A stretch of 64,000 nucleotides of DNA from a virus, in the IMG/VR virus record IMGVR_UViG_3300020370_000002, positions 18,806 through 82,805 of that record. One strand, 5' to 3'. Made by a program: the position numbers and the translations under genes. Within the stretch, counting starts at the first letter, position 1, and the number at the start of each line of letters is the position of its first letter. The notes below the pieces were generated by a model. That model did not search any database and was not told where the DNA came from. It saw only the letters and a list, made by a program, of their open reading frames with translations. Of the stretch, positions 36,159 to 64,000 are shown piece by piece.

Positions 36159-36890
36159 TTAGCTAGCGGCAGCTTTTTCTTTTTTAGCCGCACCATCATA
36201 ATCAGACGCTGTTAATCCTCTTCGGGTCAACATAGTCTTTACACCACGTGCAGTTTTACCAATCGACTCTGCGATTGCTTCAACTGTCATGTCAGATACA
36301 TCACCTAACTCTGCTAAAGGATCGCTTTTTGCAGAACCTTTGGTGTGTTCCTGACGGGGAATAGCGTCAATATCGCCAGAACGAAGTAGGCTGAGAGCCT
36401 TTCCTCGTACACTGTTTACACTACGATCAAGAGCTTCTGCAATCGCTTCTACGAAAGCACCATCATTTACCATAGAAATAAAGGTAGCCTCTTCATCTGG
36501 TGAGTAGGTTCTAACAGTCTCCACTTTGGGAGCTGGCTTAACATGGGCAGTAAGTTCCATTGAAAGAATCTTACCTTGAATAGACTTAGCACTAAATGCT
36601 CCGCCTTCAAAGTTCTCTGCAATCTGAGCATAGGTATACTCACCGCTATTGTCAGAAACAAAAGCTGCAAGAGTAGCTTCTTGACTTTCAGAAAAAGCAC
36701 GAGTGCTCTTTGCAGAAGCAAGTTCTACTTCGTAACCCATTTTCCTCAGTTTGCTAGAAACTGACCGTGTAGTAGTCTCAAGCTGATCTGCTGCTTCTGC
36801 AACAGTATCTTGAGATACTGGGGATTCATCACCGACAAAATTAGTGAGCTCGTCGGTACGCTCGTCTGTCCACTTAGGCAATGTTGCCAT
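36159..36890 (-). CDS. DNA-binding protein with four GcrA-like HTH repeats
   Basis: A protein of 243 residues with four helical units: TVAEAADQLETTTRSVSSKL near residue 30, TYAQIAENFEGGAFSAKSIQ near 85, FVEAIAEALDRSVNSVRGKA near 145, and TVEAIAESIGKTARGVKTML near 205. Each fits the pattern IA-x2-L-x5-SV-x2-KL-x3-G of GcrA and Myb/SANT-like helix-turn-helix modules. The first starts WTDERT, as GcrA does. It ends in an Ala/Lys tail. It probably binds several sites at once and could be a transcription factor or nucleoid protein. A GGAG site precedes the ATG. Confidence 0.65.
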   Translation of the reverse strand: MATLPKWTDERTDELTNFVGDESPVSQDTVAEAADQLETTTRSVSSKLRKMGYEVELASAKSTRAFSESQEATLAAFVSDNSGEYTYAQIAENFEGGAFSAKSIQGKILSMELTAHVKPAPKVETVRTYSPDEEATFISMVNDGAFVEAIAEALDRSVNSVRGKALSLLRSGDIDAIPRQEHTKGSAKSDPLAELGDVSDMTVEAIAESIGKTARGVKTMLTRRGLTASDYDGAAKKEKAAAS

Positions 36891-37707: not shown

Positions 37708-38661
37708 TTATTTTTCCTCAACTCGTCGGACAATACGCGGGATGATTTCACCACTTCGTATGACCTCGACGTGACAACCAATTTCAAGACCTAACTCCTC
37801 AATATGAGCCATATTATGTAAGGTTGCTCTTGATACAAGAGCATCCCCAATCATAACAGGGCCAAGTATTGCTACTGGTGTAACAACACCTGACTTACCT
37901 GTCTGCCACTCAACATCGCTTAGATAGGTTATTACCCCCTCTTTTTGCTCTTTGAAGGCAAGAGAGCCTCTTGGATGGTGGGAAGTAAATCCCTGATCCA
38001 TCCAATAAGTTGTATCGTCTAGTCGGAATACTCTTCCGTCTTGAGGATACAGGGATGCATCAATAGAGTAAACTGTGCCAATTCCAAAAGACTCAACCAT
38101 CTGTAGAACATCTACCCAAGAGTCTATAAAGTAAGGTCGCATATCATACGCTACAAACCTAAGCTCGTTTCTACGACTCATGAAATCTCTTTCTAGTTTT
38201 AGATTGAGAGACCCCGCAGCGTAATTACGAGCATTAGGAATACTAATAGGGGCGACAACTTCTCCATCAATCTGTACTTCTTTTTTGAAGTTGATCTTGG
38301 CTGGTACAAGATATTTTATCTTGTTAGTAATATCAATACCTATCTTACCATTGCCTCGTGTTAAGGCACGGTAAAACTCGCCATCTCGATACATGACAGA
38401 TACTGCCGCCCCGTCTAGTTTAGGAGTGCAAGTTACTAACTGTCCTTCATGCTTTACTCTAAGCCAGTTTTCTAGCTCATCATTATCAAATGTTTTCTGT
38501 AGTGAGTACATTTGATACTTATGATGTACTCCAGACTCGGGGGTATATCCGATACCCTCAAGTCCGTCGTATAAAGCGTCCCACTCAGTGTCAGTCAAAG
38601 GACTGTTACCACCTTCGTAGTATTTCTTTGCTATTGAATTTTTGTTAGTATTATCACTCAT
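37708..38661 (-). CDS. NAD-dependent DNA ligase, N-terminal (adenylation) subunit
   Basis: A protein of 317 residues. The adenylation motif is TPKLDGAAVSV (Lys near residue 79). RGNGKIGIDIT, QIDGEVV and an OB-fold ending at SRATLHN and IPRIVRR follow. The N-terminal Ia part is short. It becomes adenylated from NAD and seals nicks together with the C-terminal subunit. The ATG lies 8 bp after a -10 box with no ribosome binding site, so the mRNA is predicted to be leaderless or to have 1-2 extra bases. Confidence 0.9.
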   Translation of the reverse strand: MSDNTNKNSIAKKYYEGGNSPLTDTEWDALYDGLEGIGYTPESGVHHKYQMYSLQKTFDNDELENWLRVKHEGQLVTCTPKLDGAAVSVMYRDGEFYRALTRGNGKIGIDITNKIKYLVPAKINFKKEVQIDGEVVAPISIPNARNYAAGSLNLKLERDFMSRRNELRFVAYDMRPYFIDSWVDVLQMVESFGIGTVYSIDASLYPQDGRVFRLDDTTYWMDQGFTSHHPRGSLAFKEQKEGVITYLSDVEWQTGKSGVVTPVAILGPVMIGDALVSRATLHNMAHIEELGLEIGCHVEVIRSGEIIPRIVRRVEEK

Positions 38662-39369: not shown

Positions 39370-39765
39370 CTAGTCGGCCAATAAGCCTGTGAAATACTGA
39401 GCTGCTTTGCCAGTTAACTTAGATATAATATCTTCGTCTACTGCTAAGCCTTTGTCTGTGATAGCTGCGGTGAGGGCATCTTGTGCTGCCTGCTTAGATA
39501 CGCGTGTACCACCTGAGGAAGTCCCACCACCATTCCCCGTAGCGGGAGTCTTTTTTACATAGACACCTGCTTTGGTTAGAATCATACGAACCCCGTTAGG
39601 GCTTTCGTTTAATTCATCTGCAATTTCTTTTACAATTTCCATTGAAGTCTCAGGAGTTGGATCCTGTGCTTCATACATCTCTACGGCTTGCGCCTTCTTG
39701 TCGTCGTCCCACGCCATTCTGCGTTTTCCTCGTTGTTGTTGTTGAAAATAAAATCGGTCGCCCAT
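39370..39765 (-). CDS. GcrA-like HTH protein
   Basis: A protein of 131 residues with a single HTH unit (IVKEIADELNESPNGVRMIL, then TKAGVYVKK) after a MAWDDDKKAQAVEMYEAQ helix. A Gly/Ser/Thr linker leads to a C-terminal helical domain (SKQAAQDALTAAITDK, VDEDIISKL), the layout shared by the paralogues at 48569, 49859 and 52711. GAGGAA precedes the ATG. With its own promoter and terminator it is a monocistronic unit, which suits a regulator or an abundant DNA-binding protein. Confidence 0.7.
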   Translation of the reverse strand: MGDRFYFQQQQRGKRRMAWDDDKKAQAVEMYEAQDPTPETSMEIVKEIADELNESPNGVRMILTKAGVYVKKTPATGNGGGTSSGGTRVSKQAAQDALTAAITDKGLAVDEDIISKLTGKAAQYFTGLLAD

Positions 39766-47067: not shown

Positions 47068-47670
47068 TTATTTTTTCGCAACTCTAATTATTGTCTTGAG
47101 GGCTGACTTGATTCCCTTCTTTTTGTTGTTGTAATCAAGAACGTGCCATTCACTATCTACTACTCGTTCCTTGAGAAGCGTCATGCTATCGTAGTACGAC
47201 AGTGCATTTTCGTCATTCTCTGAGAACTTCCAGTAGGTGAGAGGAGAGTTTTTTCTGTTGTCTATTCTAGCTCTCTGCTCTTCCTCTGTGATGGACAGCC
47301 ATAGCTTGATAATCTTCACGTCTTGGAAGGATTCCCACATCTTGTAGCCTTGCAAAAACTCTCTGTACTGATCTTCTGTGCACCAGTTGTTGAGTCTCTG
47401 AACCATAGCTCGTGAGTACCAAGACCTGTCATAGAATACGATCTGACCTTTTGCTGGCATCTTTGTTTGCCAATGACCTAGCCAGTTCTCCATAGTTTGT
47501 TTACTTGGCTTTGTTGAAGGGACAACAGAGTACCATGCAGGGGATAAGTATTGGGTCAAAGCTCTAATCGTACTTGACTTTCCAGCCGTGTCTCTGCCTT
47601 CTAATACTACTGCAATGCCTTTGTTGTTGTTTGCTGCGATCTGATTTAGTTTTGCTAATAATTTTTTCAT
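47068..47670 (-). CDS. Polyphosphate kinase 2-like enzyme
   Basis: A protein of 200 residues. Walker A EGRDTAGKSS lies at 24-33. VPSTKPSKQTMENWLGHW fits the PPK2 segment KP-x-x-E-x-x-x-x-Y-x-x-RW. Walker B FYDRSWYSRAMV lies at 79-90, with the family DRSWY box. PPK2 enzymes make nucleoside di- or triphosphates from polyphosphate. It is shorter than usual PPK2 (about 230-300). The ATG is 6 bp after the -10 box with no ribosome binding site, so the mRNA should be leaderless. Confidence 0.8.
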   Translation of the reverse strand: MKKLLAKLNQIAANNNKGIAVVLEGRDTAGKSSTIRALTQYLSPAWYSVVPSTKPSKQTMENWLGHWQTKMPAKGQIVFYDRSWYSRAMVQRLNNWCTEDQYREFLQGYKMWESFQDVKIIKLWLSITEEEQRARIDNRKNSPLTYWKFSENDENALSYYDSMTLLKERVVDSEWHVLDYNNKKKGIKSALKTIIRVAKK

Positions 47671-47676
47671 GTTTGT

Positions 47677-47705
47677 ATTATCTCACCATTTAGCGAGAAT
47701 GTCAA
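47677..47705 (-). promoter_or_regulatory. sigma70-type promoter giving a leaderless PPK2-like mRNA
   Basis: TTGACA (47705-47700), 17 bp, GATAAT (47682-47677), 6 bases, ATG. An AAAATAACG element precedes the -35. Confidence 0.8.
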
Positions 47706-47802
47706 GCGTTATTTTCCATTTACTACAAGAAATATAAAACTTTTTTTCGTTTGCTGAAGCGTGTCCAGAACTATAAGTTTACTACATAGGCAAAAAAATT
47801 AT

Positions 47803-47831
47803 TTGACGTATGCCAAAAAGTGTGATAAAAT
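47803..47831 (+). promoter_or_regulatory. Promoter of the plus-strand structured RNA
   Basis: TTGACG (47803-47808), 17 bp, TAAAAT (47826-47831), preceded by AAAAAAATTA as in the other promoters of the family. No gene follows on this strand. The predicted start is near 47838. Confidence 0.65.
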
Positions 47832-47837
47832 ATATGA

Positions 47838-48255
47838 AAAATCGTAAGATGATTTGATCAATCGACTGTTTTTACAAACCTATGGTGATGAAAATATCTT
47901 GAAATATGTATGCGATTGGAGTGGAATCGGAATTAAGGGAGATTCCATCTCCAAACCCATAAAATTATTGAAGTGATATTGAATCGCCTACATACAAGCA
48001 ATCGTCAATTCGATTGTAATGATTTTCGATCACTTACTTATGACTTCGTAAATTACGATAACCCAATACGGGTTTTTAACCTACTAACGATGTAAGTGGA
48101 AATTCGCCTTAATTTTGCCAAAGTCGCGATGGGTCAAAAGAGATAAAGGACTTTGTGTAATTTTAAGGGATTATTCTTAGGCGATCAACCATCCGATAAG
48201 AATGAAAGGTATAGAGCATACACAGCAGATCGTTACTGCATAGATAAAAATTTTT
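47838..48255 (+). ncRNA. Candidate large structured non-coding RNA
   Basis: No gene is found on either strand here. Perfect pairings are dense: GTATG-CGATT (47908-47917) with AATCG (47982-47986) and CATAC (47991-47995); GGAGAT/ATCTCC (47938, 47947); CAATCG/CGATTG (47999, 48011); CACTTAC/GTAAGTG (48031, 48092) enclosing AACCC/GGGTT; CCTTAA plus AAAGTC with GACTTT plus TTAAGG (48107-48168); and ATTCTTA/TAAGAAT (48173, 48197). A family-type promoter precedes it, and a weak GCAG/CTGC hairpin with a T-run (48250-48257) ends it. It runs against the flanking genes. It matches no RNA family that I can recognise. Confidence 0.65.
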
Positions 48256-48256
48256 T

Positions 48257-48493
48257 TCAAAGTTCCAAGTCCTGATACTTTTCGTACACTTGTTCTCGTT
48301 TTCGGTCTACTACTCCCATATCGAGGGCACCTTTTCGTCTTAGGATATCAATAATTGCAAGGACGTCCCCGATCTCTTCTTCTAATTGTTGATTTTCGAC
48401 CCCGTGGCGACCCCGCTTCAACACTTTACTACATGCTCTCACAACTTCGCCACATTCTTCCATTAGTTTCACGTACAGATTAAACCTATCCAA
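48257..48493 (-). CDS. Small MazG-like nucleotide pyrophosphohydrolase
   Basis: A protein of 78 residues. YVKLMEECGEVVRACSKVLK and LEEEIGDVLAIIDIL give the two metal-binding helices of MazG-type enzymes in minimal form. The TTG start has GGAGG 6 bases before it. It is a second MazG-like gene, distinct from the one at 45324, and may act on a different nucleotide. It ends at the 3' end of the converging RNA region. Confidence 0.78.
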   Translation of the reverse strand: MDRFNLYVKLMEECGEVVRACSKVLKRGRHGVENQQLEEEIGDVLAIIDILRRKGALDMGVVDRKREQVYEKYQDLEL

Positions 48494-48572
48494 AAACTCC
48501 TCCCGCAGATAGCATTAAGACCGCAAGGATTGCCAACCCCGCTGCGACCATTAATTGTTCATAATCTTTCAT
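48486..48572 (-). CDS. Hydrophobic micropeptide of 28 residues
   Basis: It starts MKDYEQLMVAAGLAILAVLM and ends LSAGGVFG, one membrane span. The ATG overlaps the HTH stop as ATGA and the stop overlaps the MazG start. This tight coupling on both sides supports translation. It may be a small membrane toxin or lysis modulator; unknown. Confidence 0.5.
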   Translation of the reverse strand: MKDYEQLMVAAGLAILAVLMLSAGGVFG

Positions 48573-48883
48573 ATAAGTTCCTTAATTGAGGTTTCTAGCT
48601 TCTTTAGTGTTGCTTTCGGTGCTTTCTCCAAACCCAGTAGACTCTCCACTTCAATTCCAAGATCATCAGCGATATTTGAAACGATCTCCACTTTTGTAAC
48701 AGGTAGTTCTCCAGTCTTGGTCTTGTAGATTTCACGTCTGTATACTCCTTCTCTTGATAGCTTGCCGATTATTGACTTAATACTCTTACTCAGCTCTTTA
48801 GCTAAAGCTTCTACTGTTTCCCTATTCGGGTTGTTTTGATAGGCTTCAACTATGTGTTTTGTCTGTTCCTCATTGTAGTTCAT
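48569..48883 (-). CDS. GcrA-like HTH protein, paralogue
   Basis: A protein of 104 residues. The HTH unit (TVEALAKELSKSIKSIIGKL, SREGVY) is followed by a second domain (TKVEIVSNIADDLGIEVESL, LKKLETSI). Both parts match the proteins at 49859 and 52711. It overlaps the upstream gene by 14 bases, with AAAGG before the ATG. It is probably a DNA-binding regulator or architectural protein. Confidence 0.72.
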   Translation of the reverse strand: MNYNEEQTKHIVEAYQNNPNRETVEALAKELSKSIKSIIGKLSREGVYRREIYKTKTGELPVTKVEIVSNIADDLGIEVESLLGLEKAPKATLKKLETSIKELI

Positions 48884-49280
48884 CCATTTTACCTTTCAAA
48901 AATTTTGTTAATGTATCCATAAACTGCTGAACTTCAGCCATTGGATTCTCACTCTTCTTGGCTAATTCTTCAGCAGGAGGCGCTTTATCTAGGGCTATAG
49001 AGATATCTCCCGTATCTCCATCACAGGTGGTTATTACTTGAGTACAGTATTCTAACATTCCTGCGGGGATATTTTCTGCCCCAATCGCAGCCGCATATTG
49101 CATTACAAGATCGTCATATCTAACCTGTAACTCTCCACATTCTTTTTCTAGCTCACGAGAAGCCACAAAGAGTTTTGTTAAATTTTCAAATCTATCTGTA
49201 ATCTGCGCTTGCAAATTATTTATTTCTGCTGCAATAGTTTCAACTTTCCTTTCGATTGGAAACTGTACTACATTGCTCAT
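48870..49280 (-). CDS. Coiled-coil hypothetical protein of 136 residues
   Basis: The N-terminal 60 residues are helical (VETIAAEINNLQAQITDRFE, SRELEKECGELQVRYDDLVM). The middle is acidic and the end amphipathic (VQQFMDTLTKFLKGKMDEL). A GGGAG site precedes the ATG. No family is recognised. Its operon partners are the HTH protein and MazG. Confidence 0.6.
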   Translation of the reverse strand: MSNVVQFPIERKVETIAAEINNLQAQITDRFENLTKLFVASRELEKECGELQVRYDDLVMQYAAAIGAENIPAGMLEYCTQVITTCDGDTGDISIALDKAPPAEELAKKSENPMAEVQQFMDTLTKFLKGKMDELQ

Positions 49281-49858: not shown

Positions 49859-50224
49859 TTAGGATACTGCGTCAAGCAGAGTCTGTAGATCACCAAAGCC
49901 AGCTTTGTTTAGGCTGACAAACTCGACACCAAGTTTGGCTTCGATGTCGGCTACCAAATCAGCTTTTCTCACCTGAGGTGGACGCTTGGTAGGCTTAGGC
50001 TGGGCAACGTATACACCCAGAGCGGAGAGCTTAGCGATAACGCTTCGCTCGGTTTTCCCAAACTGAGCTGCAAGTGCATTGACAGTCTCACGGTTGGGGG
50101 ATTCCTCGTAAGAAGCTATCATAGTGTCGATAACGTCCTGAGGGTAATTACTTGATTTAACAGCAGTCATAGTCATACTATTTGTTCCTCCGAATAATTT
50201 TTTTAATGTTTCTCTCAATTTCAT
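49859..50224 (-). CDS. GcrA-like HTH protein upstream of the structured RNA
   Basis: A protein of 121 residues from the leaderless ATG, or 105 from the internal MTMTAVKSSNYPQ start that has GGAGG 10 bases before it. The HTH unit is TVNALAAQFGKTERSVIAKL, SALGVY. The second domain is RKADLVADIEAKLGVEFVSL. Two in-frame starts, one leaderless and one with a ribosome binding site, may give two products. The stop is followed directly by the structured RNA. Confidence 0.72.
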   Translation of the reverse strand: MKLRETLKKLFGGTNSMTMTAVKSSNYPQDVIDTMIASYEESPNRETVNALAAQFGKTERSVIAKLSALGVYVAQPKPTKRPPQVRKADLVADIEAKLGVEFVSLNKAGFGDLQTLLDAVS

Positions 50225-50231
50225 AATACAT

Positions 50232-50260
50232 ATTATATTAGAATTTACCATTTGAGTCAA
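50232..50260 (-). promoter_or_regulatory. sigma70-type promoter inside the end of the peptidase gene
   Basis: TTGACT (50260-50255), 17 bp, TATAAT (50237-50232), 7 bases, ATG. The -35 and spacer are coding sequence for the last residues of the upstream protein, whose TAA stop touches the -10 box. Confidence 0.8.
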
Positions 50261-52506: not shown

Positions 52507-52711
52507 AAAAATATCCTATAATGCCGAGTGAATTTAATATGATTAAGTTGTAGAGCTTACCAGAGGTTGCTTGTATAGTCAACAGCGCAAGCCCAACAAT
52601 CGCAAGAAATTTTCCTGCATTATAATCAATGATAAAGGGAGCCAAGCCCATGCAGATCGTACCGATCCACGCGAGCCATTCAACCAAAGCCTGACGGCTT
52701 TGAGCATCCAT
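52490..52711 (-). CDS. Membrane protein of 73 residues
   Basis: It has two or three hydrophobic segments (WLAWIGTICMGLAPFII, FLAIVGLALLTIQA, NLIILNSLGIIGYFYAL). The ATG overlaps the HTH stop as TAATG. It overlaps the HAD gene by 17 bases. A transporter- or holin-like role cannot be decided. Confidence 0.65.
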   Translation of the reverse strand: MDAQSRQALVEWLAWIGTICMGLAPFIIDYNAGKFLAIVGLALLTIQATSGKLYNLIILNSLGIIGYFYALYF

Positions 52712-53001
52712 TATTGGATGCTCATTAGAAGGGCTGAGAGAGAGCGCATTGATGCGCCTTCTAGACCTTCAAGGCTTTCACCTTGCAAAGCCTTTTCGAT
52801 GGCTTGCACCATCTCGGCTTTGGTTGAGCGTGAGGCTTTCGCCTTTGGCTCTGCTTTTTTGTAAAGCCCAAGCATAACGGCTTTTGAAATGACAGAACGG
52901 ACGGGAAGCCCGAATTCTGCCGCGAGATCATCAGCGACAGAGCGCGTGATGGGTGAGCGATCGTCCATAATGGCGATCATTTTAGTAGTGTAGTTTGACA
53001 T
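52711..53001 (-). CDS. GcrA-like HTH protein, paralogue at the head of the GC-richer operon
   Basis: A protein of 96 residues. HTH unit VADDLAAEFGLPVRSVISKA, VMLGLYKK; second domain TKAEMVQAIEKALQ, MRSLSALLMSI. The chosen ATG has AAGGAGG 6 bases upstream; longer readings would cross the promoter. It is the first gene of the operon and is probably its regulator. Confidence 0.72.
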   Translation of the reverse strand: MSNYTTKMIAIMDDRSPITRSVADDLAAEFGLPVRSVISKAVMLGLYKKAEPKAKASRSTKAEMVQAIEKALQGESLEGLEGASMRSLSALLMSIQ

Positions 53002-53043
53002 ATGAGCCTCCTTAGGCGTGTCGGTTAATTTTAATATGCAAGC

Positions 53044-53072
53044 ATTATCGCACATTTTTGCGAAAAAGTCAA
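53044..53072 (-). promoter_or_regulatory. sigma70-type promoter of the GC-richer operon
   Basis: TTGACT (53072-53067), 17 bp, GATAAT (53049-53044), preceded by AAAATAATGC. The leader of about 36 bases carries AAGGAGG. Confidence 0.78.
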
Positions 53073-53111
53073 GCATTATTTTATATTTCTTTTGCATATA
53101 TTTCTTGCCCC

Positions 53112-58887: not shown

Positions 58888-59134
58888 AGGCTACAATAAG
58901 CCTAAGCGCACGCCTCGACACCCGAAGAAGTCGCACATTGTGGTAGCAAGAGTAGGGCATAAAGTAAAGACTATTCGTTTTGGTCAGCAAGGTGCTAAAA
59001 CCGCAGGTAAGCCAAAGAAAGGCGAGAGCCAAGCGATGAAAAGAAAAAGAGCCTCATTTAAAGCTCGGCACAGAAAGAATATTGCAAGAGGTAAAATGAG
59101 CGCGGCCTACTGGGCCAACAAAGTGAAATGGTAA
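58838..59134 (+). CDS. Basic phage protein (DUF6321-like), 98 residues
   Basis: It contains RAGVRGYNKPKRTPRHPKKS, HIVVARVGHKVKTIRFGQQG and KRKRASFKARHRKNIARGKM, ending SAAYWANKVKW. This conserved pattern is frequent in phages, often near the terminase. The ATG overlaps the previous gene by 50 bases. It is probably a nucleic-acid-binding or virion protein. Confidence 0.75.
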   Translation: MAHAKRGKSLLKRAGVRGYNKPKRTPRHPKKSHIVVARVGHKVKTIRFGQQGAKTAGKPKKGESQAMKRKRASFKARHRKNIARGKMSAAYWANKVKW

Positions 59135-59143
59135 TCTCGTTCA

Positions 59144-59200
59144 TCCTTTAAGGACGGAAGTAAGGAGCACTTAGCCTGAAGGAACGCCAGACACGGCTAA
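59144..59200 (+). promoter_or_regulatory. Two-hairpin leader before a micropeptide gene
   Basis: TCCTT-T-AAGGA is followed by the perfect 6-bp helix TTAGCC/GGCTAA (59171-59176 with 59195-59200), which ends directly before AAGGAGA and the ATG. The arrangement suggests a structured ribosome-binding-site control element. Confidence 0.5.
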
Positions 59201-59213
59201 AAGGAGAGATACT

Positions 59214-59267
59214 ATGAAAGAAGTAACTTTAGTCTATCGTGGTGTTACATACACTAAAAAGGTATAG
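59214..59267 (+). CDS. Micropeptide of 17 residues (DUF4278-like)
   Basis: MKEVTLVYRGVTYTKKV has the LxYRGVxY core of short phage DUF4278-type peptides. AAGGAGA lies 8 bases before the ATG, and a structured leader precedes it. Function unknown. Confidence 0.55.
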   Translation: MKEVTLVYRGVTYTKKV

Positions 59268-59280
59268 GGAGAGGTAAAAT

Positions 59281-59871
59281 ATGGATATACTTTTAGAACT
59301 TGCAACAACTTTTTGGCAATGGAGCGTAGTAATCGTTCTAATTTTAATTGGTTTTATAATCAGTTGGTTTGACGGCCAAGGAGAAGAACGTGTAGGTTTT
59401 AAAATGCCCTTTGGTATGCCCGTATTACAACCTATACCAATAGAAACAAAAGACAAAGGGTTTTGGAAAGGGATTCTTCTGTGGCTTCTTGGTAAAAGAC
59501 AGTGGGAGGTCGCAGAAGACTTCTGGTTTAAACTAGACGGAGAAACCTACATGATTCCCGCAGGATTTCAGTTTGACGGGGCTTCTGTACCAAAGTTTCT
59601 TGCTACCTTTCTTTCGCCTGTAGGAGTTTTACTTATGGGTGGTTTAGTACATGATTATGGGTACAAGTACGCAACTTTAATGAGAGATGACGGTACTAAT
59701 ATTGGTTATAGAGACCAAGCGTACATGGACAGACTTTTTCGAGATATATGCATCGAAGTAAACGGGTTTAAATTTTTAAACTATCTTGCCTACTGGTCAC
59801 TTCGCCTTGTTGGCTTTGTGGCTTGGAACGGGCACAAAAAGAGAGGTACGCATACTGAGGAGAGCGCATGA
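59281..59871 (+). CDS. DUF1353-type phage protein
   Basis: A protein of 196 residues. An N-terminal span (WSVVIVLILIGFIISWF) is followed by the DUF1353 core: AGFQFDGASVPKFLATFLSP, GGLVHDYGYKY and YRDQAYMDRLFRDIC. Conserved His and Asp in VHDYGY suggest metal or catalysis. The family is common in tailed phages and has no proven role. GGGAGAGG precedes the ATG. Confidence 0.78.
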   Translation: MDILLELATTFWQWSVVIVLILIGFIISWFDGQGEERVGFKMPFGMPVLQPIPIETKDKGFWKGILLWLLGKRQWEVAEDFWFKLDGETYMIPAGFQFDGASVPKFLATFLSPVGVLLMGGLVHDYGYKYATLMRDDGTNIGYRDQAYMDRLFRDICIEVNGFKFLNYLAYWSLRLVGFVAWNGHKKRGTHTEESA

Positions 59872-60101
59872 GTGAAGAAGGTAAGAATAAATACCAGAAG
59901 TGGATTGATTTAGCAGAAGCTGTAGATAGCTGGAGAATATTTCCACGAGCATTTTTAAGCGTGTATATCTTTCTTCTCTACTACAGCACAATGTGGTTTA
60001 TGGCCTTAGAAGCACCAAGCCTTGAACAGTCGGGCCTTATATCAATTATCGTGGGTGCGGGTGCTGCATGGTTCGGATTATATACAGGAAGTAAAAAGTA
60101 A
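59868..60101 (+). CDS. Holin-like membrane protein of 77 residues
   Basis: Two spans (FLSVYIFLLYYSTMWFM and ISIIVGAGAAWFGLY) follow an amphipathic N-terminus (KYQKWIDLAEAVDSWRIFPR). The layout and size fit a class II holin, and I know near relatives in marine phages. Coupled by ATGA to the DUF1353 gene. It would release the T4-type lysozyme, although it is encoded 17 kb away. Confidence 0.65.
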   Translation: MSEEGKNKYQKWIDLAEAVDSWRIFPRAFLSVYIFLLYYSTMWFMALEAPSLEQSGLISIIVGAGAAWFGLYTGSKK

Positions 60102-60110
60102 GAGGCCACT

Positions 60111-61415
60111 ATGGCAATAGAGATTAGTCGAGCGGATATTATTTCGCAAGAGCTATTAGAGTTACAATCTGAGACAAGGTTTCTCAAATTACCAGTAGAT
60201 CCCTACTTGGAGCTACTCGGCATAACGCCCCTTGCTAGTCAAGTGGCGATCATAAATGCGATTAATAATCCGAAATACCGTTTTGTATGTGCGGCTGTTT
60301 CGAGAAGGCAGGGTAAAACCTACATCGCAAACATAATCGGGCAGCTAGTTTCGCTAGTTCCCAACTCAAACATACTCATAATGTCCCCCAACTATGCCTT
60401 GTCTCAGATTTCTTTTGATCTTCAAAGAAATCTGATAAAGCACTTTGATTTAGAAGTTGCGAAAGACAATGCAAAAGATAAGGTAATAGAACTAACAAAT
60501 GGATCCACAATTCGAATGGGAAGTGTTAATCAGGTTGATAGCTGTGTTGGTCGTAGCTACGACCTTATCATCTTCGATGAGGCTGCTTTGGCCGATGGCA
60601 GGGATGCTTTTAACGTAGCCCTACGCCCCACGCTGGATAAAGACAATTCAAAAGCAATCTTTATAAGTACCCCCAGAGGAAAAAACAACTGGTTTTCAGA
60701 CTTTTTCTACAGAGGCTTTTCAGATGAATTTAAAGAATGGGCGTCTATTCGAGCTACTTATAAGGATAATCCTCGCATGTCTGAGACGGATATTGCGGAA
60801 GCTCGAAAATCTATGTCCGAGGCTGAGTTTCGACAAGAGTATGAAGCAGATTTCAACACATACGAAGGACAAATTTGGAACTTTAATCACGAAGAATGTA
60901 TTGGAAACTTCGACGAGATTGACACCTCAAAGATGGATGTCTTTGCGGGCTTGGATGTCGGTTACCGAGACCCTACGGCCTTTTGTGTAATTGGCTATGA
61001 CTGGGATGAAGAAAAGTTTTACTTACTGGATGAGTACTTAGATGCCGAACAAACAACAGAAACTCACGCAAAAGAAATTCAAGCACGAATTGATAAATGG
61101 GGTATTGACTATATTTATATCGATTCTGCTGCGCAGCAAACACGATTTGACTTCGCACAAAACTATGACATATCTACTATTAACGCAAAGAAGTCCGTTC
61201 TCGATGGAATCGCGCAGGTAGCTGGAATAGTAGATAATGATAAATTACTTGTTGAACAGACTTGTAAAGAATCCCTCTCTGCGTTAGATCAGTACCAGTG
61301 GGACCCCAATCCCAACCTAATGAAAGAGAAACCGAAACACAACTATGCATCGCACATGGCGGACGCGTTAAGGTATGCATTATACTCATTTGAGACTTCG
61401 GCAATAAGTTTTTAG
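60111..61415 (+). CDS. terL: Terminase large subunit
   Basis: A protein of 434 residues. Walker A is SRRQGKTY (64-71) and Walker B IIFDEAA (153-159), followed by the ISTPRGK coupling motif. The RNase H-like nuclease shows GLDVGYRDPT (first Asp), IYIDSAAQQ and HMADALRYAL. It pumps and cuts phage DNA at the portal. AGAGG precedes the ATG. The HNH gene next to it is typical of cos-type HK97-like phages. Confidence 0.95.
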   Translation: MAIEISRADIISQELLELQSETRFLKLPVDPYLELLGITPLASQVAIINAINNPKYRFVCAAVSRRQGKTYIANIIGQLVSLVPNSNILIMSPNYALSQISFDLQRNLIKHFDLEVAKDNAKDKVIELTNGSTIRMGSVNQVDSCVGRSYDLIIFDEAALADGRDAFNVALRPTLDKDNSKAIFISTPRGKNNWFSDFFYRGFSDEFKEWASIRATYKDNPRMSETDIAEARKSMSEAEFRQEYEADFNTYEGQIWNFNHEECIGNFDEIDTSKMDVFAGLDVGYRDPTAFCVIGYDWDEEKFYLLDEYLDAEQTTETHAKEIQARIDKWGIDYIYIDSAAQQTRFDFAQNYDISTINAKKSVLDGIAQVAGIVDNDKLLVEQTCKESLSALDQYQWDPNPNLMKEKPKHNYASHMADALRYALYSFETSAISF

Positions 61416-61437
61416 GATACCTGGTCAAAAATAATAT

Positions 61438-61466
61438 TTGACATGATACCCCAAACTAGGTATAAT
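61438..61466 (+). promoter_or_regulatory. sigma70-type promoter of the head genes
   Basis: TTGACA (61438-61443), 17 bp, TATAAT (61461-61466), with AAAATAATAT upstream. A leader of about 28 bases precedes the HNH gene, unlike the leaderless members of the family. Confidence 0.82.
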
Positions 61467-61500
61467 TCTATCATTGAAAAATTAGAAATCCAAGAACCTA

Positions 61501-61866
61501 ATGGTCACACTTAAACGAGATATAGTAAAATATATTCGAGACAAAGCGAAGAATAAGTACGATAAAGGTTCGGAGTGCTACATTTGTGGAGCAACAGAGA
61601 AACTTGACTTTCACCACTATTACACGTTAGCGCCCCTAGTACATAAATGGGTTCGGGAAAATGACTTAAATCCTATGTACGTTCTTGCTTTCAGAGAAGA
61701 CTTTATAGAGGACCACCACGACGAATTATACGTACATGCGGTTACTCTATGTCATACGCACCATAGACAATTACATAAAGTATACGGACGAGACCCAGGC
61801 CTTGGAACAGCAAACAAGCAGAAGCGCTGGGTAGAGATACAAAGAGAAAAACATGGCATGGTATGA
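61501..61866 (+). CDS. HNH endonuclease next to terminase
   Basis: A protein of 121 residues. CYICGATEKLDFHHYYTLAP gives the first Cys pair and the HH of the HNH motif; VTLCHTHHRQLHKVYG gives the rest. HNH proteins beside TerL assist cos cleavage in HK97-like phages. A homing endonuclease is the alternative, but the position favours packaging. The ribosome binding site is poor. It overlaps the portal gene by 14 bases. Confidence 0.85.
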   Translation: MVTLKRDIVKYIRDKAKNKYDKGSECYICGATEKLDFHHYYTLAPLVHKWVRENDLNPMYVLAFREDFIEDHHDELYVHAVTLCHTHHRQLHKVYGRDPGLGTANKQKRWVEIQREKHGMV

Positions 61867-63064
61867 CAGATTCTTAGGCAGGGAAGACGAGGAAAAAGCT
61901 AATCCCGCACAGTCGCTATTAGGAGGGACTTCCGAGAGTACTCGAGAGCCTACTATAAGCTATGAGCGACAATACGAAGAATTAGAAATTGTCAACCGTG
62001 CAGTTAATATGATTGTTGATGACGCTGCAGAAATTCCTTCTACAATATTAGGCTCTAGGCGTCAAACAGGAATTATAAAAAACATAAAAAGAGCAAAAGT
62101 TAATCAGCTCTTAAATGTAGAACCAAACTTATTTCAAGATATAAATACATTTAAGCGTAACTTAATAACGGACTTTATACTAGATGGAAATATTTTTATA
62201 TACTACGATGGAGCACATTTGTACCATCTTCCTTCAAGTAAAATGTCTATTGAAGCAAGCGAAAGCACCTATGTAGAAAAATATACTTTCTCTCAGTCTA
62301 TAGACTATAGCCCAAAAGAAATCATTCATATAAAAGAAAATTCTTTTTATTCTATTTACAGAGGAGTACCTAGACTTAGTCCAGCCTTGAGAACTATGCA
62401 GTTAATTGGCTCAATGAGAAAGTTTCAAGATAATTTCTTTAAAAACGGTGCAGTTCCAGGATTAGTTTTAAAAAGCCCTAATACTCTTTCTGAAAAGATC
62501 AAAGAGAGAATGATACAATCATGGAGTGTAAGGTATAGGCCCGAAGGCGGAGGAAGGCGCCCTTTAATTTTAGATGGCGGCATTGAAGTTGATTCTCTTT
62601 CTAATACTAACTTCAAGGATTTGGACTTTCAGAATTCAATATCAGAAAATGAAAAAATTATACTTAAAGCTCTTGGCGTACCACCCATATTACTTGATTC
62701 AGGTAATAATGCAAATATAAGACCAAACTTAAGATTGTACTATTTAGAGACGATACTCCCAATAGTGCGAAAAATAAACTTTGGGTTTGAAAGATTTTTT
62801 GGGTTTGAAATTAAAGAAGATATTACAGATATCCCCGCTTTACAGCCAGAGTTAAGAGACCAATCAGCGTATTATACCTCCCTAGTAAACGGTGGTATAA
62901 TAACTATAAACGAAGCAAGAGAGCAGCTAGGTTTTGAACCTATTGCTGGTCAAGACGAAGTAAGAGTTCCTGCAAATATAGCAGGGAGTGCAGCAAACCC
63001 AGACGAAGGGGGAAGGCCTGCCGAATCAGAAGAAACTATAACCGAAGATGGAGAGGAAGAATAA
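61853..63064 (+). CDS. Portal protein, HK97-like
   Basis: A protein of 403 residues. It contains EIVNRAVNMIVDDAAEIPST, a clip/stem region, and IYRGVPRLSPALRTMQ with FFKNGAVPGLVLKSPNTLSE, typical of HK97-family portals. The C-terminus is acidic (ESEETITEDGEEE). It forms the dodecameric DNA gate of the head. Order terminase, portal, protease is standard. Confidence 0.93.
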   Translation: MAWYDRFLGREDEEKANPAQSLLGGTSESTREPTISYERQYEELEIVNRAVNMIVDDAAEIPSTILGSRRQTGIIKNIKRAKVNQLLNVEPNLFQDINTFKRNLITDFILDGNIFIYYDGAHLYHLPSSKMSIEASESTYVEKYTFSQSIDYSPKEIIHIKENSFYSIYRGVPRLSPALRTMQLIGSMRKFQDNFFKNGAVPGLVLKSPNTLSEKIKERMIQSWSVRYRPEGGGRRPLILDGGIEVDSLSNTNFKDLDFQNSISENEKIILKALGVPPILLDSGNNANIRPNLRLYYLETILPIVRKINFGFERFFGFEIKEDITDIPALQPELRDQSAYYTSLVNGGIITINEAREQLGFEPIAGQDEVRVPANIAGSAANPDEGGRPAESEETITEDGEEE

Positions 63065-63376
63065 ATGGCGGGATCGTCAGTACAAAAGAAAAAAATGGCA
63101 GTTACAATGGCCATGTATTTCGCAGAGAATGGTTATCTTCCAACTCCAAAAGAATTCTCGAACGACCCCATTAGACCACCAGAAATAAAAATATCAACTA
63201 TACGAAAAATATTTGGTTCTTGGTCGATAATGGAGAAATATACGAGATCATTTTGTCCCGACATTATGCGTGGACTTACTAATGTAAAGCCTAAAATAAT
63301 CGATCCTTTAAAGGAGCTAAACAAGGCACAGACCGCAGAAGCGGAAAAAGAGGGGGCAAATGGAAAAAGTATTTAA
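63065..63376 (+). CDS. Hypothetical protein between portal and protease, 103 residues
   Basis: A basic N-terminal helical segment (VQKKKMAVTMAMYFAENGYL) is followed by PTPKEFSNDPIRPPEIKIST, TIRKIFGSWSIMEKY and a charged tail. The segment resembles an HTH but no family is certain. It overlaps the protease gene by 17 bases. A head or packaging accessory role is inferred from position. Confidence 0.6.
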   Translation: MAGSSVQKKKMAVTMAMYFAENGYLPTPKEFSNDPIRPPEIKISTIRKIFGSWSIMEKYTRSFCPDIMRGLTNVKPKIIDPLKELNKAQTAEAEKEGANGKSI

Positions 63377-64000
63377 TCTCACCTCTACTTTTAAGTCTCA
63401 TACTGAAGAAGATGGTAGTGTTATGATTCGAGGTATGGCTAGTACCAATGACTTTGATCGCGCGGGCGATTCAATTTCAACTGATGCTTGGACTAAAGGT
63501 GGATTAAACAATTTTGAAAAGAACCCTATTATTCTTTTCAATCATGATTACAACAGACCTATTGGTAGAGCTACTGGTTTAAAAACTACTGCCAATGGAC
63601 TGGAGCTGACTGCTAAGATAAGCAAAGCAGCAAAAGATGTTGTAGATTTAGTTAAAGACGGTGTTCTTGGGGCCTTTTCTGTTGGTTTCCGAGTCAAGGA
63701 CGCTGATTATATCGAGGAAACCGACGGTTTAAAGATAAAGGACGCTGAGTTGTTTGAGGTATCGGTAGTATCTGTACCATGTAATCAATCAGCTACTTTT
63801 TCACTGGCGAAGTCTTTTGACTCCATGGCGGAGTACGAAGAGTTCAAAAAAACTTTCACTAATAGTGACGGGGCGCAAGTCCAAAAGGAGATAACAATGT
63901 CTGAAGAGACAACTCAACCCGTTGACTTGGAAGCTTTTGCTAAAAAAGTAGCTGAGGAAACTGCTGCTAAGATAGCCATGAAGCAAGCCGAGCAAAAAGC
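63360..64000 (+). CDS. Head maturation protease, HK97 S78-like, with extended C-terminus (partial)
   Basis: The frame is open to the window edge; 213 complete codons are visible. GGGGG before the ATG serves as ribosome binding site. FNHDYNRPIG (His), GAFSVGFRV (Ser) and ELFEVSVVSVPC give the S78 protease core at residues 60-150. After residue 180 the frame continues into a charged helical region (VDLEAFAKKVAEETAAKIAM) that looks like a scaffold or capsid delta domain. A protease-scaffold or protease-capsid fusion is therefore likely. Confidence 0.88.
   Translation, partial: MEKVFNLTSTFKSHTEEDGSVMIRGMASTNDFDRAGDSISTDAWTKGGLNNFEKNPIILFNHDYNRPIGRATGLKTTANGLELTAKISKAAKDVVDLVKDGVLGAFSVGFRVKDADYIEETDGLKIKDAELFEVSVVSVPCNQSATFSLAKSFDSMAEYEEFKKTFTNSDGAQVQKEITMSEETTQPVDLEAFAKKVAEETAAKIAMKQAEQK

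Follow-up and report, generated by a model that had tools for sequence, protein, structure and literature searches.

A conserved structured RNA, read as a noncoding RNA gene, in a lineage of marine T5-like phages

GOLLD and ROOL are large structured RNAs that occur in phages, and among phages T5 is a classic model. The literature searched yielded no description of a large noncoding RNA from the T5 group, and the large catalogues of phage RNAs may include the family described here. A permuted (two-piece) tmRNA is present in the marine phage Melnitz (PMC9004378); tmRNAs of this type resemble the present RNA in being structured and phage-borne, and they occur in related marine phages, but there they are a separate and clearly recognised gene. 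The locus considered here lies in a 64-kb window (the whole stretch of DNA that was analysed), part of an 82.8-kb virus record. The original prediction, that it holds a large, previously undescribed structured RNA with a promoter of its own, is upheld by the lack of an Rfam relative, by about 55 homologues, by compensatory changes in three subfamilies and by conserved synteny. The accompanying suggestion of GOLLD or ROOL, offered as a likeness only, found no support, as neither covariance model matched at the gathering score or at E up to 10; the window RNA is smaller (~300 nt) and consists of one rod with small hairpins. The RNA family is new, with no relative in Rfam, and its broad kind, a phage-borne structured RNA with no function assigned, is already known.

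The window phage shows an affinity with T5 in its DNA polymerase, a D5-like regulator, an SbcC-like subunit and an NAD-dependent ligase, and has both the T5-type DNA polymerase and the D5-type regulator by which T5-like phages were recognised. Since the best isolate match of the polymerase, in Aeromonas phages, is only 45% identical, the phage is placed in a distant, uncultured T5-like marine lineage. The ligase is short (317 aa, window positions 37708-38661) and recalls the split ligase of T5, and small D5-like or DNA-binding paralogues (phrog_323, phrog_1725) are found across the early region, at 36159-36890, 39370-39765, 48569-48883, 49859-50260 and 52711-53097. Positions 59090-64000 match perfectly the first 4,911 bases of the record, a direct end repeat that may reflect either T5-style terminal redundancy or a circular assembly, and a glutamine riboswitch aptamer (RF01739, 50.8 bits) lies within the repeat at 59136-59190 on the plus strand.

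The RNA occupies a gene-free, AT-rich stretch (47671-48256) with minus-strand genes on both sides. The longest sense open reading frames in it are of 40 aa, begin with TTG or GTG and lack conservation within the family, in keeping with the claim that the stretch is free of genes. On one side is a PPK2-type kinase gene (47068-47670, minus strand), divergent from the RNA and adjoining it in the window and the nearest relatives alone; PPK2-type polyphosphate kinases are rare in isolate phages (15 INPHARED records, the best about 40% identical). On the other is a convergent MazG-like gene (48257-48493, minus strand), which is not conserved at this spot in homologues. The predicted transcript, on the plus strand, is antisense in direction to both neighbours, as was originally noted.

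The promoter (47791-47831, plus strand) is made up of an A/T-rich upstream tract, the -35 box TTGACG, a 17-nt spacer and an extended -10, TGATAAAAT. Its core (47803-47831), of the sigma70 type TTGACG-17-TAAAAT with TG ahead of the -10, is the phage promoter first proposed to precede the RNA. This sequence is single-copy in the 82.8-kb record, and several perfect TTGACA-17-TATAAT promoters occur elsewhere in the window phage. The promoter is kept in homologues fetched by a protein search independent of the promoter motif, and homologues recovered without that motif have the same promoter with changes. When the start is set by promoter geometry and the 3' end, which is uncertain, by the last conserved element, comparison of homologues gives a conserved plus-strand noncoding RNA of only ~300 nt, from 47838 to 48133, and not one of ~410 nt as was first supposed. 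No conservation was seen across ~48170-48255, the contig of the nearest homologue stopping near ~48170.

The homologues were gathered by several routes. A protein search with the neighbouring PPK2, in which the RNA was not used, gave 39 viral loci, and nhmmer, given nothing but the window sequence, detected the RNA in 19 sequences, one of them the window itself (for example at E 5e-36 in L016 and 2e-29 in L031). In the nhmmer matches the RNA is often kilobases away from PPK2 and is therefore not tied to that gene. Pattern scans (promoter, hairpin loops, leader) enlarged the set to 56 distinct sequences, or about 55 homologues from marine IMG/VR contigs, and the 50 that were at least 300 nt long were folded; because such scans favour their own search motif, part of the conservation seen in the promoter is a product of the search. 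Sequences excluded by inspection as apparently unrelated, mostly coding DNA, were L086, L088, L089, L091, L093, L098-L100, L104, L105, L112 and L113. Neither blastn nor the promoter pattern found homologues in INPHARED phages or GTDB genomes, a likeness of L048 to T5-like phages of E. coli and Salmonella proved to be the promoter region of a protein gene, and model R1 yielded nothing significant in the genomes of that group (E above 1). A T5-like DNA polymerase is present in most of the RNA-bearing records tested and, in those large enough for the test, is 74-80% identical to that of the window. A model of one subfamily recovers members of others, with E down to ~1e-7, chiefly through the conserved leader. 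The C/D subfamily model did not recover the window itself, and the kinship between the window and C/D rests on intermediates that link the two by sequence similarity, and on an architecture common to both.

Folding of the 50 members gave z below -2 for 48 of them, with a mean of -4.27. All subfamilies have a leader, a rod ~100-120 nt in length, some smaller hairpins, in most cases one around GATAAYYAAATA, and a 3' element, and the sequence of the rod is almost wholly replaced from one subfamily to another. Within the C/D subfamily 12 of 25 pairs have changed on both sides and 96.6% of cells are paired, a figure that falls to 25-50% when the alignment is slid by 1-3 columns; the pair- and type-count measures were less extreme, being reached by 10 and 412 of 500 shuffles. 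Both-side changes affect 16 of 39 pairs in the B subfamily, a value that 0 of 500 shuffles reached, and 13 of 37 pairs in the rod of the window's own subfamily (95.5% of cells paired; 0 of 500 shuffles), with 5 of 23 pairs in a shorter alignment of the latter. These shuffles ignore the relatedness of the sequences, and the structures, having been derived from the same alignments on which they were tested, are somewhat favoured, but chance is an unlikely explanation given the slid controls and the repetition of the result across three subfamilies. Single-base indels in the rod, seen on comparing L012 with L085 and L020 with L031, keep the stems and shift every reading frame. Both of the properties generally asked of a structured noncoding RNA, stability beyond that of shuffled sequences and compensatory base changes, are present, and the locus is almost certainly a functional structured RNA; it is read as a gene for a noncoding RNA in a marine T5-like phage.

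In the window the plus strand folds better than 100 of 100 dinucleotide shuffles (z -3.72), but the reverse strand does equally well (z -3.76), and the strand was therefore assigned from the promoter and the homologues. The RNA opens with a leader hairpin region at 47840-47864 (AATCGTAAGATGATTTGATCAATCG, or TTGATAGACAATAAGGTCAATCA in most homologues), whose helix 1 is present in 13 of 13 sequences and is so nearly invariant that it is weak as evidence of covariation. The core of the RNA, identified by folding and homologue alignment, is a long imperfect rod at 47884-47988 with an apical loop, CGGAATTAAGGGAG, at 47928-47941. Small hairpins follow at 47998-48017 (CAATCG/CGATTG) and at 48060-48074 (AACCC/GGGTT), the latter in the region that in most homologues forms the hairpin enclosing GATAAYYAAATA, and the last conserved element, at 48100-48130, reads AAATTCGCCTTAATTTTGCCAAAGTCGCGAT in the window and AAATTCGTCTTAATTTTGTGCAATTCGCGAT in homologues; the T run that usually comes after it in the latter is absent from the window. 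All of these features are on the plus strand. A long-range pseudoknot joining the leader to the GATAAYYAAATA loop (ATCGTAA/TTACGAT in the window) was rejected, since a sequence's own pairs were no stronger than swapped ones (p 0.23).

The two nested long-range helices that the first description emphasised, CACTTAC/GTAAGTG and CCTTAA..AAAGTC/GACTTT..TTAAGG, are indeed to be found in the window sequence but are not conserved in its closest homologue, L005/L065, which is 92% identical. There CACTTAC has become AATCTC and GTAAGTG has become GTGTGTG, and AAAGTC/GACTTT is replaced by AATTCG/GACTGT, which breaks the helix; CCTTAA/TTAAGG still pairs in L065 through a G-U variant. Between L065 and the window the rod differs in a single outer pair, U-G having become U-A with pairing intact. 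As judged from these comparisons, the conserved structure is the rod with its small hairpins and not the long-range helices.

The RNA faces an opposite-strand operon that includes a gene for a putative DNA-binding protein of 104 aa (48569-48883, minus strand), convergent with the RNA in homologous loci and belonging to a family present at 25 of them. The N-terminus of the protein weakly resembles the T5 D5 regulator (phrog_323, E 3e-4). A second conserved gene of the operon (48870-49280, minus strand; MSNV.FP family) is found at 20 loci, and no matches to the proteins of this operon were found in INPHARED. G005, one of the RNA-bearing records tested for the polymerase, shows the same convergent arrangement of RNA and D5-like gene. 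In the more distant G006, whose polymerase is 62% identical to that of the window, no match to the RNA sequence was found, but a promoter lies beyond the D5-like gene together with a rod-shaped RNA (z -5.73), whose apical loop, CGGAACTAAGGGAG, is that of the window RNA with one base changed. A second contig shares the G006-type rod. The G006 RNA is read as a distant homologue on the basis of place, shape and loop rather than of overall sequence. In subfamily C (L045, L053, L061, L067, L069) an opposite-strand coding sequence appears to overlap the 3' part of the RNA (+217 to +477), so that one stretch may serve both.

An apical loop preserved on unrelated stems is a common sign of a contact site. 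The loop CGGAATTAAGGGAG is borne, in other subfamilies as well, on stems that differ: GAAT/ATTC, GGATG/CATCC (L012, L085) and GCCTT/AAGGC (L111, with ATAAAG); its retention on changing stems favours the view that a protein or other macromolecule reads it. The apex varies by subfamily, being either a 12-nt loop or a G.A loop with a small hairpin; in the second form a small GC hairpin has GA or GAA to one side of it and GA or GUA to the other, to judge by inspection a tandem G.A-type loop. The 3' half is poor in G (11.8% G against 22.1% C), and C is more than twice as frequent as G there in 25 of 50 members, as against 4% of background windows. Rod, apex and G-poor 3' half together suggest a trans-acting, protein-binding early RNA, which is the best overall explanation and is put at about even chances; that the RNA works mainly by binding protein is given slightly less than even odds. 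On this explanation the host RNA polymerase would make the RNA early from its strong T5-type promoter, and the RNA would work in trans, either as an RNA-protein scaffold or as a decoy. A protein encoded by phage or host would bind the conserved purine-rich apex that the rod presents (CGGAAUUAARGGAG, or, on a GC hairpin, tandem G.A loops), and the A/C-rich, G-poor 3' half would stay free for another partner.

A long open 3' half would suit base-pairing equally well, and for that reason the main rival is a large sRNA that regulates by pairing in trans, in which the rod would be a stabilising body and the 3' half would pair with phage or host mRNAs, perhaps with Hfq. The 3' half is mostly open in half of the members and contains the conserved stretches GATAAYYAAATA and CAATTCGCGAT, but when the window was searched for further copies or complements of the 3' element and of the two conserved loops, nothing exceeded chance. 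An Hfq-bearing host is plausible from the tmRNAs of the relatives. Permuted two-piece tmRNA genes of alphaproteobacterial type occur in L085 (13327-13780, plus strand), L139 (13727-14107, minus strand; ~350 bp from the structured RNA) and L143 (13273-13616, minus strand), with the tags ANDDIYALAA, ANDVYEQELALAA and ANDEVYDLAIAA among these relatives; none was found in the window's own record. The type weakly hints at alphaproteobacterial hosts, weakly because a marine phage described from a gammaproteobacterial host also carries it (PMC9004378). Regulation by base-pairing is a possibility, but a tentative one.

Regulation in cis, by transcription interference or by pairing of 3' ends with the convergent D5-like operon, is unlikely. 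It would draw on the convergent arrangement in homologous loci and on the overlap in subfamily C, but the rod is far from that overlap and would not be needed for it, nor would convergence explain a rod; in the window the end of the D5-like gene is >400 nt past the conserved RNA, and the adjacent gene varies. The hairpins might instead act in DNA, as an origin or a T5-type transfer stop, a reading to which the transfer biology of T5, the T5-like nature of the phage and the noncoding, AT-rich stretch lend some colour. G-U pairs among the pair changes, a strong promoter right at the 5' edge, a transcript too poor in G to favour R-loops and the lack of a strand switch at the locus make this very improbable.

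Membership of a known class (GOLLD, ROOL, 6S RNA, tmRNA, riboswitch or mRNA leader), for which size and complexity alone speak, is more improbable still. Rfam 15 gave no match at the locus at the gathering score and only chance-level ones in a permissive scan (E 3 or worse), and no conserved same-strand gene lies downstream. The 6S RNA (ssrS) is likewise rod-like with internal loops, and RNA polymerase is a conceivable target for an RNA made early by a phage, but the internal loops of the window RNA are small, without a large central bubble, its 3' half is long and open, and the 6S covariance model found no match at the locus. ARAGORN and Rfam were negative for a tmRNA there (tRNA-like domain, tag frame), and a riboswitch or 5' leader was rejected because every conserved gene downstream lies on the opposite strand. 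The stem-borne, GGA-containing loop of the window's subfamily recalls titrating RNAs of the CsrB/RsmY type; CsrA titration as a general function was discarded, GGA being missing from the apex of several subfamilies and Rfam giving no match, as was an anti-Shine-Dalgarno role for the GGAG loop, which other subfamilies lack. A short peptide gene can practically be dismissed, for the ~40-aa sense frame in the window's subfamily has a TTG start, is destroyed in relatives by 1-nt indels that keep the stems, and has no counterpart common to the subfamilies.

It is conceivable, though doubtful, that the family represents a new phage RNA machine, an RNP scaffold or decoy made early and at a high level and conserved throughout the marine T5-like lineage, with a body whose sequence changes quickly and a shape and apex contacts that endure, perhaps to capture a changing host RNA-binding or defence protein. 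The alignment, loops and coordinates make expression, partners and essentiality testable, and provide a seed family for RNA annotation in viromes. Since pairing has been preserved although most letters have changed, and at one fixed place across the lineage, the RNA must serve a need of the phage.
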